Positions 1 to 5,050 of a stretch of DNA of 25,423 nucleotides are shown here, piece after piece. This DNA is from a virus. Each line of letters opens with the position of its first letter. Positions within the stretch are counted from its first letter, which is position 1. The position numbers and the translations under genes were made by a program. The stretch is taken from IMG/VR virus record IMGVR_UViG_3300048028_000022, positions 1 to 25,423 of that record. One strand, 5' to 3'. Below the pieces are notes generated by a model that ran no database searches, was not told the DNA's origin, and saw only the letters and a program-made list of their open reading frames with translations.

Positions 1-469
1 AAAAATCGCCAACAGGCAAAGATATAGTCGTTGTATTACCATCACTATCCGTTATGTTTAAAGTTATTATTCCATCGACAACACTATATTCTATTCTGTT
101 GCCTTCTAATTCTAGTACTCCACTATCGCTAGGAGTCTCACCAAACAAATTATCTACAAGCTGTCTAGATAACTGTGCATATATTCTAGACTCTAAGTTC
201 CTTATAAACCTTGCAAGTGTTGTGTTCTCTTTGTCTCTTTCTATCTCATCTTGTAATGCTTTTATCTCTGCAGCCAAAGCTTGTTTACGATTGAACTCTT
301 GGTTCTGGATTGTAAGATAATGTGAAGATGAATTAATACCGCTAAAGCTAGGACTCTTAAACTTATGTACCATTTCATCAGCTCTTAATAAACTAATTGA
401 AAACAGTAATACAAAAATAGTAATTACTGAAAATTCAAACTTAATCTTTTCTTTGGTCTTTCTTTCCAT
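1..469 (-). CDS. csgF: CsgF-like curli secretion pore accessory protein (3' end cut by window edge)
   Basis: The frame starts at an ATG (467-469) inside the end of the upstream gene and is open for 156 codons to the left edge. Residues 1-10 are basic, about 13-28 are hydrophobic, and a cleavage site is likely near Ala30, so it should be exported. The mature part begins with HKFKSPSFSG (35-44), matching the FxFxNPxFGG start of CsgF, the segment that plugs into the CsgG pore. A charged helix (60-85) leads to a second helix, LARFIRNLESRIYAQL (85-100). The end has NRIEYSVVDGIITLNITD (124-141), then DGNTTTISLP, equivalent to the CsgF G-x-T-x-I-x-V-P tail. E. coli CsgF has 138 residues, so little is missing. 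In bacteria CsgF is secreted and forms the outer constriction of the CsgG outer-membrane channel. Overlapping a phage membrane-protein gene by 29 bases shows it belongs to the phage operon. Role here (lysis, release or surface change) is inferred. Confidence 0.82.
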   Translation of the reverse strand, partial: MERKTKEKIKFEFSVITIFVLLFSISLLRADEMVHKFKSPSFSGINSSSHYLTIQNQEFNRKQALAAEIKALQDEIERDKENTTLARFIRNLESRIYAQLSRQLVDNLFGETPSDSGVLELEGNRIEYSVVDGIITLNITDSDGNTTTISLPVGDF

Positions 470-722
470 CTGCTCTAGCTATCCTATCTATATCAGGTTT
501 TAAACCCATTGCTGCCCGACACATGGCATCTATTCTAATCATGTCGTTATCCATCTGTCTTATTCTATCTATCAATGCAACTATCATGCCTTGTTGAGTA
601 TCTAACTTCTTATGTATGTCTGCTATTAAAGACTTGAAAAGTACCCATACTAAGTACCCTAAACCTGCTGCACCTGCTGCCGGTATACCTATAGTCTCTA
701 TAGCTTGTACCCAATCGTTCAT
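441..722 (-). CDS. small single-TM protein, UviB/BhlA-like holin candidate
   Basis: 93 residues. One hydrophobic, Gly/Ala-rich segment lies at about residues 12-32 (GIPAAGAAGLGYLVWVLFKS), followed by a long charged helix with heptad-like spacing (residues 35-65) and a very basic tail ending GKKDQRKD. This layout, a single N-terminal membrane helix and a cytoplasmic coiled coil, is that of small holin-like proteins of the BhlA/UviB type and of many unassigned phage lysis-region proteins. It starts one base after the stop of the 3-TM holin-like gene, and its last 29 bases overlap the start of the CsgF-like gene. Position in a membrane-protein cluster after the virion genes supports a lysis or envelope role. 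The sequence alone does not prove holin activity; it could be a holin regulator. Confidence 0.6.
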   Translation of the reverse strand: MNDWVQAIETIGIPAAGAAGLGYLVWVLFKSLIADIHKKLDTQQGMIVALIDRIRQMDNDMIRIDAMCRAAMGLKPDIDRIARADGKKDQRKD

Positions 723-723
723 A

Positions 724-1158
724 TTACTTCTTAACTAAACTACCACCAAAGTACATACCTATGATAGCTGATACTAGATTAGTATCTAGTTGTGTTATTA
801 CCAAGCCTTGAAAAGTTATCCACTCAAATACATCTCTACCTTCTTTGAAGAACCAGAATCCCGGTTGAAAGTTTGTATAACCTACAGTAACATCTACATT
901 AGGATAGTACACAGCTACAAGTTTAGGTAACACTACTATAGCAAACACTGATGTTAGTGCTATGATTCTTCTTGTCCACTGGAATCCTTTATCTTTAACA
1001 TCTCTTGCAGCTTTACGAGCTTTCATTTCAAACTCGCCACGTGTTATAAGTAACTTCTGGTTGTCTTGTTTAGCCTTACGACTCTCTGCCCAGACACTCA
1101 TAACTCCACCAAGTACAGTAGAGCCAAGCATAGTTATTATCTCAAACGGAAAACCCAT
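724..1158 (-). CDS. three-TM holin-like protein
   Basis: 144 residues. Three hydrophobic segments are visible: about 4-24 (EIITMLGSTVLGGVMSVW), about 65-86 (IIALTSVFAIVVLPKLVAVY) and about 119-140 (VITQLDTNLVSAIIGMYFGG). A strongly basic amphipathic stretch with KARKAARDVKDKG sits between the first and second. This resembles the 3-TM holin family found in phages and gene transfer agents, whose role is to open the inner membrane at lysis. The start ATG overlaps the stop of the preceding 45-residue ORF as TAATG, so translation is probably coupled. No endolysin or classical spanin pair is visible beside it in this window. The family call is from topology and composition, not from an alignment. 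Confidence 0.62.
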   Translation of the reverse strand: MGFPFEIITMLGSTVLGGVMSVWAESRKAKQDNQKLLITRGEFEMKARKAARDVKDKGFQWTRRIIALTSVFAIVVLPKLVAVYYPNVDVTVGYTNFQPGFWFFKEGRDVFEWITFQGLVITQLDTNLVSAIIGMYFGGSLVKK

Positions 1159-1295
1159 TACACTACATCCGCCATCAAGTCTTCGTATAGTATTCTAAAA
1201 TCTTCTAACTGCATAAAGCCTAAGTCTTTTTCTATCTGGTGTATTCTGTAGACTTTATAAGCCTTTTCAAGTTGTATCTCTGTGTAAAGTATCAT
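1158..1295 (-). CDS. 45-residue small protein between the ejection-type protein and the holin-like gene
   Basis: A complete ORF shorter than the usual 60-codon cutoff. Its ATG shares bases with the TGA of the 1252-residue gene (ATGA overlap) and its TAA shares bases with the ATG of the holin-like gene (TAATG), so it fills the gap exactly. The product is MILYTEIQLEKAYKVYRIHQ followed by IEKDLGFMQLEDFRILYEDL and MADVV. It is mostly helical in character, mixed charged and aromatic (five Tyr, two Phe), with no membrane segment or signal. No Shine-Dalgarno is visible at its start, which fits re-initiation after the upstream stop. Function unknown; the tight overlaps at both ends are the main reason to accept it. 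Confidence 0.7.
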   Translation of the reverse strand: MILYTEIQLEKAYKVYRIHQIEKDLGFMQLEDFRILYEDLMADVV

Positions 1296-4200
1296 TGTAC
1301 AAGTTGTTGTTGTAATAAAATTTCTTTTTCTTTCTGTGCTTTATTCCACTTATCTTCCATTACCTGCCTATCAGGTCCTTGATTCCAATGTTCCATCCAA
1401 GCTGTTTTACTATCTAACTCTCCTGTCGCTAACTTATCAAGTGGTAAAGTTCCTCTCTCTGCATCCATATAAAATAAAGTATCTTGTGTTGCTTCTGATA
1501 AAGTTGAAAAATCTAAATCTTTACCTTGTTGAGATAAAGCATATTCAATTTCTTTTGGTTTAGGAGCATTGGGATATTCTTCATAAAAGTTTTTAGCTCT
1601 TTGTAAAATAGTTTCGTTTCTACTGCTTCCCTCTCTTCCTTCTACTTGATAGCTTCCTCTTGCTGGTCCGTTGTTATTTTGAACTGTTGTTGGTCCTGCA
1701 CCTCTAACTTCTTGCCACTTAACATCATCGGCATATTTTTTTAAAAATGAAGGGTCTTTATAACCTCTAGCTTGTGCAATAAAAGATAACACATCTTGAG
1801 CTATTCCACCTTCAGCTAATCCTAATCTAGCCATTTGGTCAGAGTAAGGTTTACCTGTGTTAGGGTCTATTCTATCAGCAGGGTTTTCTTTAGTATATGG
1901 TACATCGTCTTTGCCTTTTACTAATCCGCCTGTTGCAAAGAAATTTTTACCGCTAGAAATAATTTCTGGTTCTTTTTCTTCTACTCCAGTAGGAGCTAAT
2001 GGAGATTCTTTATCTAAACGTCTAGCTTCTTTTAACCATGCATTATATGTTTCAGGGTGTAAACTTTTTAAAGTGACGCTAAAAGGACTTCTTCTTAAAG
2101 CTGTTTCTGCTAACACTCCTCTTTCCATAAATTTAGTTGTATACTCAATTAAATCTGGTAAATTTGGTCCGACTACTGAACCTATTGCAGCAGCAAATTT
2201 ACTCTCATATTGTGCTGCCTTAGTATATCTAACATAATATTCAGCAGGTCCTAACAAACCAGAATATTGTAGACTACGTTCAAGCATGTCTTTTTTAGTA
2301 ATCTCTCCGTTTTCTAACTGTTCCCAGTTTTTACCTCCTGTTCTTAGTGTATAGTTTAATAAACCAACACTAGCCATGAAGGTTGCTCCTGTTACAGCTC
2401 TTCCAGAAGATAATCTTTTACCTCCAGACATAAAAGTATTTTTATCTCTAGTTAAATTTCTTATTGTTTTCCTCATTGGTCCGTTTGCAAATGCAGTTGG
2501 GAAACCCATAAGTCCATATATCCACTTAGTTCCTGCAAGAGAATGAACTAAAGGTTTTTGCCCTGAAGCTGCTGTTGGATTCATTACTACTTCATTAGTG
2601 TACCTATTAGCTCCAGCTCTTACATCTTGCATAAAAAATCTGTCTGTATGTAAGCCTCCTCTATCTAACCAGTTTAATCCTTTTTGATAATCAACTCCTA
2701 ATTCAGCTAACTCATCTTGTAATCTTTTAATATCTGCATTAGGTAATTTATTTTTTCCTGTTAAATTAGAATTATCTGCTATAGTTTTTAAGTTTTTATA
2801 TATTAAATTCTTACCACTATCATAACCTACTAACTGTACAAACCTTGTCCAATCATGTAGTCCAATAGTTTTAAAAAACATGTTTTGTATTTTTGTAGCA
2901 TTTTTACCTACAGCTTGACCGTATATAGCTATGGCTCTATCTTCAGCACCTAAATTAACAGAAGACATAAAAGCATTTAAGTCTTGTCTATTAGCACTAC
3001 GAACATCTATGTTCATGTCTCCTACACCAAAGTTTTGTTTTTGAGTTTTCCACCACTCTCCGGCACTATCTACTATTGCATTTCCTATAGCTTTACCACC
3101 TATTTTACTTTCTGTTCCTAATAATAAAGGCACTCCTATTTCAGCAAAACTTGTAAGTGTAGACAGCCCTAACATAGAGGTTTGCATTGTTACTGTTAAT
3201 GTATCATGTATTCCTGCACCTATTTTTCCAGTAGGAATCATACCAAACATATCTCTACGGTTTCTGTTTATTCTTCCTTTTTGTCCAGTTGTAACACCAT
3301 ATAAAGTTTTTAAATAAAGTTCTTCTTTTGGACTTAAATCTAATCCTGCATCTTTAATAGGATTTATCCATCTTTTTATAAAGTCTTCTTCTGTTTCTCC
3401 AAATAATTTTGTACGTGTTATAAGTGCTGAAGATTCAGTGTAGTATTGTTTTAATATACCCTCAACATCGTTACTTAAAAACTTTGAAAAGTCTTCGTCT
3501 TTTATATTTTTTAAAAGTCTTTCTGATTGCAATCTACTACTAAGACCTGCTGCTGTACTAGATTCTTGAGTTCCTTCTGTAGTTAATTTTAACCATAATT
3601 TTTCAGAAGCTTCTTGAGTAGCTCCTTCAGCTTTCATTATCTTTTCAATAAACTCTTTTTTATTATTTTTAATAACATCTATTCTCCACATACGAGGAAA
3701 ATAATTATCAGCTCTGTTAGGATTTAAACCTGCTTTTTTTGCTTTACTATGAATGTCATTTAATTCTCTTCTTATTTCTTGACCAGCTTTAACAATATTT
3801 TTTTCTATAGGAACTTGTACACCATCTATAACTTTAAAAGATTTACCAGACCTTAAAAAATATGCTAAGTCATCATTAACTGAATCACTTAATCCCGGAT
3901 TCATAAAAATATTTTTTCTCTCTTTAGAAGTAAGTCTATTTTGAGCAGTAAATAATTTATTTTTTCTTAATATTTTAGATAGTTTTTCTGTTTTATTTCC
4001 CCAAAACTGTCTAAGTTGTAAATCATAATCTGCTTGTAACCTTTCTTGTTTACCTAAAGTAGGTGCTACAAAACCCTCCATAGCATCATATCTTATAAGT
4101 TTTAAAAGTTTTTGAAGTGGTTCATTTTCTTTAGCTTTCTTACGTAAAAAAGTTGTTGGTCTCATAGGAAGAGTAGTAAGTTTTAATACATCTGTAAGTC

Positions 4201-5050
4201 CTGTAATTTTTTCTGCTGTACCTTCTATAAAATTACTTTTATAATTTTCATTGTCATCTATTTTAGCAATTCGTTGTTCGTTTACAGATTTAATTAATTT
4301 AGGAGTTTGACTTACTGCTTTAAAACCTCCAACAATTGCTGGTGCTAAAACAGCCCCCATAGCTCCAGAAGTAGTTGTTTGTAGTAAATCTCTTTCTTCT
4401 CTTTTATCTAAAGAAATATCTATAGATTGATTAACATAGTCATATGTACCTGCATAAATAAAACCTTCTGCAGAAGCTACACCTAATAATTGTTTAGTAG
4501 TTAAAGGTCCATTTTTTAAAACTTGACCCGGAGCATTTAAAACAACTTTACCTAAAGACTGACGTATACCTGCTTTAGTAGATTCTTTTAAAGCTTGTTT
4601 AGCAGCTTCTCCTCCTGCTAATCTACCTACCGCAGACGTTCCTCCAGTCCAAGGAATTAATAATGCAGAAGCATAATTTATAGGGTCTGTTAATAATTCT
4701 TGAGTATAATCTAAACCTAACTGTGCTTTTTCTCTAAAACTGCCTACATCAGCACCATCAAATTTAGTACGTAAATAATTATAATCTTTTAACTGTTCAT
4801 CTGTAAAAGTTTTAGCTTGTTTACTAACTTTTCTAATGTCTCTAATACTTGCATCTGCACCTCTAAAATATTGATACATGTCAGCTACGCTTTCTCCTTC
4901 ACCTAAAGATTCTAAAAATCTTTCAGAAGTTTTAACAAACTCATCATCGTTTCTTAAATCATTTAAAGTATAAGTATCTTCTTCTTTTTTTAATTTAGTG
5001 TAGTCGTAAACAGTAGAAAAATTATTGTTTGTTCTATTAGATATTGGCAT
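1292..5050 (-). CDS. large internal virion / ejection-type protein with possible C-terminal lysozyme-like domain
   Basis: 1252 residues. The N-terminal third has Ala/Gly-rich hydrophobic stretches (for example residues about 118-150 and 225-245, GAMGAVLAPAIVGG) between charged helices, as in internal core proteins that podoviruses eject into the cell envelope. The middle is long and helical. Around residues 1020-1085 is a Gly/Pro linker (DVPYTKENPADRIDPNTGKP) also seen in other marine phage virion proteins. The C-terminal about 170 residues (from 1081) hold GPARGSYQVEG (1128-1138) and a later QDTLFYMDAERG; the G-x-Y-Q-x-E pattern recalls transglycosylase/lysozyme-like domains of virion proteins, so local peptidoglycan digestion at DNA entry is plausible. 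No ribosome-binding site is obvious; the upstream nine bases are all A/T. It follows the 580-residue gene by nine bases. Virion role is likely; enzyme activity is a guess. Confidence 0.66.
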   Translation of the reverse strand: MPISNRTNNNFSTVYDYTKLKKEEDTYTLNDLRNDDEFVKTSERFLESLGEGESVADMYQYFRGADASIRDIRKVSKQAKTFTDEQLKDYNYLRTKFDGADVGSFREKAQLGLDYTQELLTDPINYASALLIPWTGGTSAVGRLAGGEAAKQALKESTKAGIRQSLGKVVLNAPGQVLKNGPLTTKQLLGVASAEGFIYAGTYDYVNQSIDISLDKREERDLLQTTTSGAMGAVLAPAIVGGFKAVSQTPKLIKSVNEQRIAKIDDNENYKSNFIEGTAEKITGLTDVLKLTTLPMRPTTFLRKKAKENEPLQKLLKLIRYDAMEGFVAPTLGKQERLQADYDLQLRQFWGNKTEKLSKILRKNKLFTAQNRLTSKERKNIFMNPGLSDSVNDDLAYFLRSGKSFKVIDGVQVPIEKNIVKAGQEIRRELNDIHSKAKKAGLNPNRADNYFPRMWRIDVIKNNKKEFIEKIMKAEGATQEASEKLWLKLTTEGTQESSTAAGLSSRLQSERLLKNIKDEDFSKFLSNDVEGILKQYYTESSALITRTKLFGETEEDFIKRWINPIKDAGLDLSPKEELYLKTLYGVTTGQKGRINRNRRDMFGMIPTGKIGAGIHDTLTVTMQTSMLGLSTLTSFAEIGVPLLLGTESKIGGKAIGNAIVDSAGEWWKTQKQNFGVGDMNIDVRSANRQDLNAFMSSVNLGAEDRAIAIYGQAVGKNATKIQNMFFKTIGLHDWTRFVQLVGYDSGKNLIYKNLKTIADNSNLTGKNKLPNADIKRLQDELAELGVDYQKGLNWLDRGGLHTDRFFMQDVRAGANRYTNEVVMNPTAASGQKPLVHSLAGTKWIYGLMGFPTAFANGPMRKTIRNLTRDKNTFMSGGKRLSSGRAVTGATFMASVGLLNYTLRTGGKNWEQLENGEITKKDMLERSLQYSGLLGPAEYYVRYTKAAQYESKFAAAIGSVVGPNLPDLIEYTTKFMERGVLAETALRRSPFSVTLKSLHPETYNAWLKEARRLDKESPLAPTGVEEKEPEIISSGKNFFATGGLVKGKDDVPYTKENPADRIDPNTGKPYSDQMARLGLAEGGIAQDVLSFIAQARGYKDPSFLKKYADDVKWQEVRGAGPTTVQNNNGPARGSYQVEGREGSSRNETILQRAKNFYEEYPNAPKPKEIEYALSQQGKDLDFSTLSEATQDTLFYMDAERGTLPLDKLATGELDSKTAWMEHWNQGPDRQVMEDKWNKAQKEKEILLQQQLVQ

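Follow-up and report, generated by a model that had tools for sequence, protein, structure and literature searches.

A csgF gene at the end of a phage late operon and the curli-type secretion cassette that it may open

Main finding

The 25,423-base stretch of DNA analyzed here (the window), which is a whole IMG/VR contig and probably a fragment, carries a genuine csgF gene at its edge. We consider it fairly likely that this gene opens a phage-carried type VIII (curli-type) secretion cassette, which would make a surface fibre late in infection. The window is another instance of a published phage curli module, and the csgF finding itself is not new: phage curli modules, their gene order and ocean spread, and the sibling capture and lysis hypotheses are found in papers published in 2020-2022 (PMC7029224, PMC9599517, PMC9004378), which agrees with the statement in the initial annotation that csgF and csgG homologues occur in a few marine phages. 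Phages that infect the most abundant bacteria of the ocean carry curli genes, and the anatomy of the cassette narrows its possible functions and speaks against a pore-only reading. Lysis genes can occur with or without the cassette behind them, and two targets stand out, a membrane protein of 93 aa and the curlin-like tail that ends a FecR-domain protein.

The csgF gene

The late genes of the window all lie on the minus strand, and csgF is the last of them. The genes at this end are:

2..469, minus strand: csgF, CsgF accessory/cap protein with an N-terminal signal peptide (Pfam, PHROG, identical copy in locus L001)
441..722, minus strand: mp93, 93 aa, a single hydrophobic segment, the rest coiled-coil-like, directly before csgF
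724..1158, minus strand: 144-aa membrane protein, holin candidate from position and hydrophobic segments only
1292..5050, minus strand: 1252-aa late-operon protein, the 3' end of its gene lying inside window 1-1936, which is 99.7% identical to contig G005

The frame 469..2 encodes 156 residues with a signal-like hydrophobic N-terminus, and contains both segments, HKFKSPSFSG and DGNTTTISLP, from which, together with the signal peptide, CsgF signatures at the two ends had been proposed. The Pfam CsgF profile (PF10614) matches residues 15-152 of the product over profile positions 2-132 of 132; since E is 1.4e-18 and the score is 67.8 bits against a curated cut-off of 25.8 bits, the match is not due to chance, and the profile search suggested in the initial annotation thus came out in favor of CsgF. 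PHROG 35372 also matches the product (2.5e-42). The HKFKSPSFSG segment, which follows the hydrophobic N-terminus, aligns with TFQFRNPNFGG of E. coli CsgF, the CsgG-binding segment of the FxFxxPxFxG type. Structural comparison was less informative: the AlphaFold2 model, too low in confidence to bear on the fold (mean pLDDT 50.7, pTM 0.27), has one long helix (residues 61-108) and a C-terminal sheet and does not confirm the two-helix middle proposed in the initial annotation, and a profile search against the PDB matched solved CsgF at E=0.4 only. The gene is open at base 1, with its last two codons and stop beyond the contig end; the copy in L001 is 100% identical and ends two residues later (158 aa, ...VGDFYF). 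The predicted 29-base overlap of csgF with the preceding gene was found at 441-469. We conclude that the window edge carries a genuine csgF gene.

Genes adjoining csgF

Locus L001, from a 47,686-base contig (G005; L001/L110), is 99.7% identical to window 1-1936. In it, csgF is followed by genes for CsgG, a 238-aa protein, a FecR-domain protein and a CHASE2-cyclase. CsgG (PF03783, E=5.5e-47) has the lipobox cysteine of a lipoprotein signal, and its profile matches solved E. coli CsgG over nearly the full length (1.4e-65). The FecR domain is matched at 2.8e-11, while CHASE2 (6.6e-28) and nucleotide cyclase (6.2e-20) domains are found in one protein. Because the window ends inside csgF, csgG is absent from it; given the 99.7% identity, we infer that the window phage continues into the same four genes. 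A csgG gene encoding a lipoprotein signal, expected by the initial annotation to the left of base 1, lies directly beside csgF in L001.

An IMG/VR scan with the window CsgF returned at least 578 relatives, and the best 80 were taken. Counted only at loci with enough contig room, the neighbors were mp93 (68/68), csgG (71/71), the gene for the fibre-like 238-aa protein (66/66), FecR (55/55) and cyclase (36/37), in fixed order. Median pairwise dN/dS was 0.16 for csgF, 0.13 for csgG, 0.13 for the fibre gene, 0.18 for FecR, 0.18 for cyclase and 0.26 for mp93. All module genes are therefore under purifying selection, and the fibre gene is no passenger. In L033 and L063, the cyclase gene appears to be in several pieces or on the opposite strand; this gene may be in decay, or have undergone rearrangement, in some of the phages.

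CsgE is the periplasmic gate of curli secretion and not an essential member of such a system. It was not found in the six phage records searched, four of which are IMG/VR records that may be fragments; the E. coli control was positive. The lack of a detected gate would suit an ungated CsgG through which a starving host imports larger nutrients or cofactors during infection, an idea put forward in PMC7029224 and PMC9599517. We regard such an uptake pore as very unlikely; it leaves csgF and the conserved fibre gene unexplained.

The fibre-like and FecR-domain proteins

The 238-aa protein encoded after csgG in L001 is secreted and beta-rich. Its match to the Pfam curlin repeat is below the cut-off (E=0.76), and that to NCBIfam CsgA is weak (E=0.003); the spacing G-x-[SDGHN]-N occurs 7 times, versus 1.2 expected from shuffles (p=0.0005), and the fibre of the window lineage has only two canonical Q-x-G-x-x-N motifs. 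The protein is homologous to proteins encoded at the same position in pelagimyophage HTVC008M and Methylophilales phage Melnitz. Three of the four fibre proteins of these two phages are above the Curlin_rpt cut-off (Melnitz gp101 and gp103 and the second HTVC008M protein), and the first HTVC008M protein is below it. The fibre HMM also picks up bacterial curlin-like genes beside csgFG. An AlphaFold2 model of moderate confidence (pLDDT 70.6) consists of a run of beta strands; a fold search with it gave no PDB match at E<=0.001, and PDB profile searches with the fibre and with mp93 gave matches at chance level only. By this indirect case, the 238-aa protein of the window lineage appears to be a curlin-like fibre subunit. 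In HTVC008M, a protein annotated as hypothetical (L081:10638-11960) joins a PA14 domain (2.7e-6) to curlin repeats (5.2e-8) and is possibly an adhesive fibre subunit.

The FecR-domain protein ends in [IV]x[IV]xQ followed by 0-2 residues in 64/64 copies, those of HTVC008M and Melnitz included, a count that covers one related family; the same end was found in 0/610 distinct background tails. The C-terminus of E. coli CsgB reads IRVTQR. In 56/64 copies, Q-x-G-x-x-[NST] precedes the terminal motif. When an HMM of the tail was run against 2010 proteins, a few curli proteins came out on top, with weak scores (E=0.055 and worse). The two motifs together suggest a curlin-like end strand and hence an anchor or nucleator; we treat the CsgB-like strand as a lead. 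A part in host iron regulation would be suggested by the domain name only.

mp93 and its two settings

PMC9599517 states that one or two short "histidine kinases" always precede phage T8SS genes. In the window, HTVC008M and Melnitz, the gene at that position is mp93 (one or two copies, about 85-116 aa), and by position, size and copy number mp93 is probably the "histidine kinase" of that paper. The window mp93 matched no Pfam family at E<=1, and no kinase family was found with 17 mp93 homologues; HATPase_c was found in 14/14 control genomes and in none of six phage records. We conclude that mp93 is without a kinase domain, which puts the published label in question.

Within the annotated phage collection, mp93 was found only in the HTVC008M and Melnitz records. 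A wider IMG/VR scan revealed two settings, T4-like contigs and podophages. Ten T4-like contigs of 168-349 kb carry Portal_T4 (10/10) and csgF (10/10), and mp93 pairs occur among them (L142, L152, L161 and others); on some of them the module occupies both strands, with, for example, cyclase opposite csgFG. At 11 podophage loci in IMG/VR, mp93 has no csgF nearby and is adjoined by holin, holin-like or endolysin genes (11/11), and CsgF was not found in six of these records, possibly fragments, when they were searched whole. We had considered that mp93 is confined to csgF neighborhoods; these 11 loci rule this out. Because mp93 stands beside lysis genes in all 11 podophage loci and occurs with csgF in all ten T4-like contigs, it appears to belong to the lysis cassette in podophages and, in the T4-like phages examined, to accompany the curli module throughout.

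Position of the cassette in the late operon

The 144-aa protein matched no Pfam holin family; its relatives in Skadi-type pelagiphages adjoin peptidase M15 genes. Beyond window 1-1936, the window phage and the G005 phage differ much more, and this indicates that the operon end was probably moved by recombination. A recent recombination joint inside 1292..5050 would thus probably carry the holin candidate, mp93 and the curli genes together.

A lysis or lysis-like gene was found within three ORFs of the module in 69/82 loci, which are related to one another and therefore do not represent independent events. Several arrangements were seen: a lysozyme (Pfam 2e-47) beside a membrane protein of 157 aa, an M15 peptidase (3.2e-13) together with a GTA-type holin (1.6e-17), the holin candidate of 144 aa, or two genes that resemble Rz/Rz1; the names of the 144-aa, 157-aa and Rz/Rz1-like proteins come from position and topology only. 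Neither HTVC008M nor Melnitz has a lysis gene of the tallied kinds within three ORFs. The claim of the initial annotation that csgF is an integral part of the phage late operon is borne out.

In L127, L131 and L132, a holin or holin-like gene is followed by mp93 and then by RNR on the other strand, with a 77-aa gene in between in L127 and L132. In some 18 other loci, csgF (and, in nearly all of them, the cyclase gene) precedes the same downstream genes. To judge from this gene order, a single cassette has its site at the 3' end of the late operon, apparently empty in the first set and filled in the second.

There is no proton gradient across the outer membrane on which a pinholin could act. 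The proximity of lysis genes, and the presence of mp93 in the lysis cassettes of podophages without csgF, could nevertheless mean that CsgG, alone or together with CsgF, now serves as a pore that helps to trigger or time lysis, the other genes being passengers or regulators; a pinholin hypothesis of this kind was published for Melnitz (PMC9004378), partly because this phage was described as lacking csgA and csgB. That premise conflicts with the Melnitz GenBank record, which contains two curlin-associated repeat proteins (L082 9291-10010 and 11069-12085), and with Pfam, which agrees with the record. The lipoprotein signal of CsgG would direct it to the outer membrane, related phages encode holins and endolysins separately, and the fibre-like gene, found at every locus with room, is subject to purifying selection of the same strength as csgG. 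HTVC008M and Melnitz, moreover, are without a tallied lysis gene close to the module. The constant fibre gene, the separate holins and endolysins and the outer-membrane location weaken the idea, and we consider a lysis pore improbable.

Host and bacterial loci

The window capsid protein is closest to that of pelagiphage HTVC115P (60.7% at the amino acid level). Of 297 genomes in the taxonomic family of a MAG titled Candidatus Pelagibacter, 2 contained csgF, both with mp93 and in phage order, so that these matches are probably phage contigs; in the class of a Rhodobacteraceae-titled MAG, 7/385 genomes had a csgF match. Curli genes are reported to be absent from Pelagibacter, and the scan result agrees. 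Five CsgG matches in GTDB were considered as host genes and rejected, as 5/5 show the phage-type order with mp93. Contigs of Maricaulis, Rhodobacteraceae, Flavobacteriaceae and Pelagibacter MAGs (L084-L088) carry a curli module of the phage type, mp93 included, and appear to be phage DNA that was binned in error. The bacterial loci without mp93 that were read contain csgF, mostly with csgG and curlin-like genes, and no homologues of mp93, FecR or cyclase were found in the listed middle part of the alphaproteobacterial 17 kb stretches. These bacterial loci are consistent with FecR and cyclase lying outside the standard set of curli genes.

Proposed function

The products of the module (CsgF, a CsgG that has a lipoprotein signal, a beta-rich secreted protein related to curlin-repeat proteins, a FecR-domain protein and a CHASE2-cyclase), encoded in a fixed order by genes that are all under purifying selection, would most likely serve to secrete a fibre late in infection, either onto the infected cell or onto its debris. 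As the cassette follows holin-type genes at the 3' end of the late operon, its products are probably made shortly before lysis, a timing deduced from gene position only. By analogy with the protein families, CsgG would form a pore in the host outer membrane late in infection, and CsgF would cap it and guide the fibre subunit outside. The FecR-domain protein may anchor, nucleate or sense the fibre, and the cyclase may signal. Least certainly, the fibre might hold neighboring cells, debris or progeny ("sibling capture") or shield against other phages. Against a fibre, Melnitz infections proceeded without clumping in cytograms or TEM, according to PMC9004378.

The initial annotation held that a phage does not need curli and preferred a pore. 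With a fibre-like subunit encoded after csgG in 66/66 loci, the argument for a pore-only role fails; a pore for progeny release is also unlikely, since the CsgG channel is described as too small for virions in PMC7029224. The lysis role suggested in the same annotation fared better in one part, as lysis genes are close in most related podophage loci, while a pore without a fibre is not supported by the 66/66 count.

A secreted surface fibre would also fit superinfection exclusion, put forward in PMC9599517, in which a layer of fibre over the infected cell or its receptors bars competing phages, aggregation being a side effect. If it formed only at the time of lysis, such a layer would be late for exclusion, and sequence does not separate this reading from sibling capture; we give it a low probability. 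Within the preferred reading of a late-secreted fibre, a more specific version can be drawn, in which the fibre is a lysis-timed amyloid, mp93 ties secretion to lysis, the FecR-domain protein is an exported, curlin-tailed anchor or nucleator, and the resulting net holds siblings and progeny. We regard this joint reading as doubtful, including the part of it in which the FecR-domain protein is not an iron-dependent regulator.

Comparison with known systems

In the literature searched, which included few subscription journals and preprints, we found nothing on mp93 in lysis cassettes, on empty sites, on the tail of the FecR-domain protein, on the HTVC008M protein that joins PA14 to curlin repeats, or on the module in jumbo phages or in phages of 168-349 kb. 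Curli genes are described in a T4-like Bacteroidetes virus (PMC7198788), and csgGF in sediment viruses (PMC9636769).

E. coli csgBAC/csgDEFG resembles the phage module in the aligned FxFxxPxFxG segment of CsgF and in the nearly full-length CsgG match. The phage module differs in that no csgE was found, in its degenerate fibre repeats and in the added FecR and CHASE2-cyclase genes. Alphaproteobacterial loci L105-L109 have csgF beside csgG in most cases and curlin-like genes close by, but, unlike the phage module, no mp93, FecR or CHASE2-cyclase homologue in the listed middle part of their 17 kb stretches.

Melnitz, whose csgF is 41.8% identical, has the same gene order; its GenBank record and Pfam contradict the absence of csgA and csgB given in PMC9004378, and the pore-only description of this phage is thereby questioned, as is the "histidine kinase" label. 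HTVC008M (PMC7029224) shares csgF (47% identical), csgG, two mp93 paralogues, fibre, FecR and cyclase, but is T4-like, has a second fibre gene (PA14 with curlin repeats) and has no tallied lysis gene within three ORFs. Podo-pelagiphages of the HTVC023P type, as given in PMC9599517, share the podophage context and the series of a short gene, csgF, csgG, a CsgA/B-like gene, FecR and adenylate cyclase. That paper, the main text of which does not mention holins, lysozymes or endolysins, labels the short gene a histidine kinase, whereas here it is without a kinase domain and occurs in the lysis cassettes of other podophages. Beyond these phages, csgF and its partner gene now extend to T4-like phage contigs of 168-349 kb.
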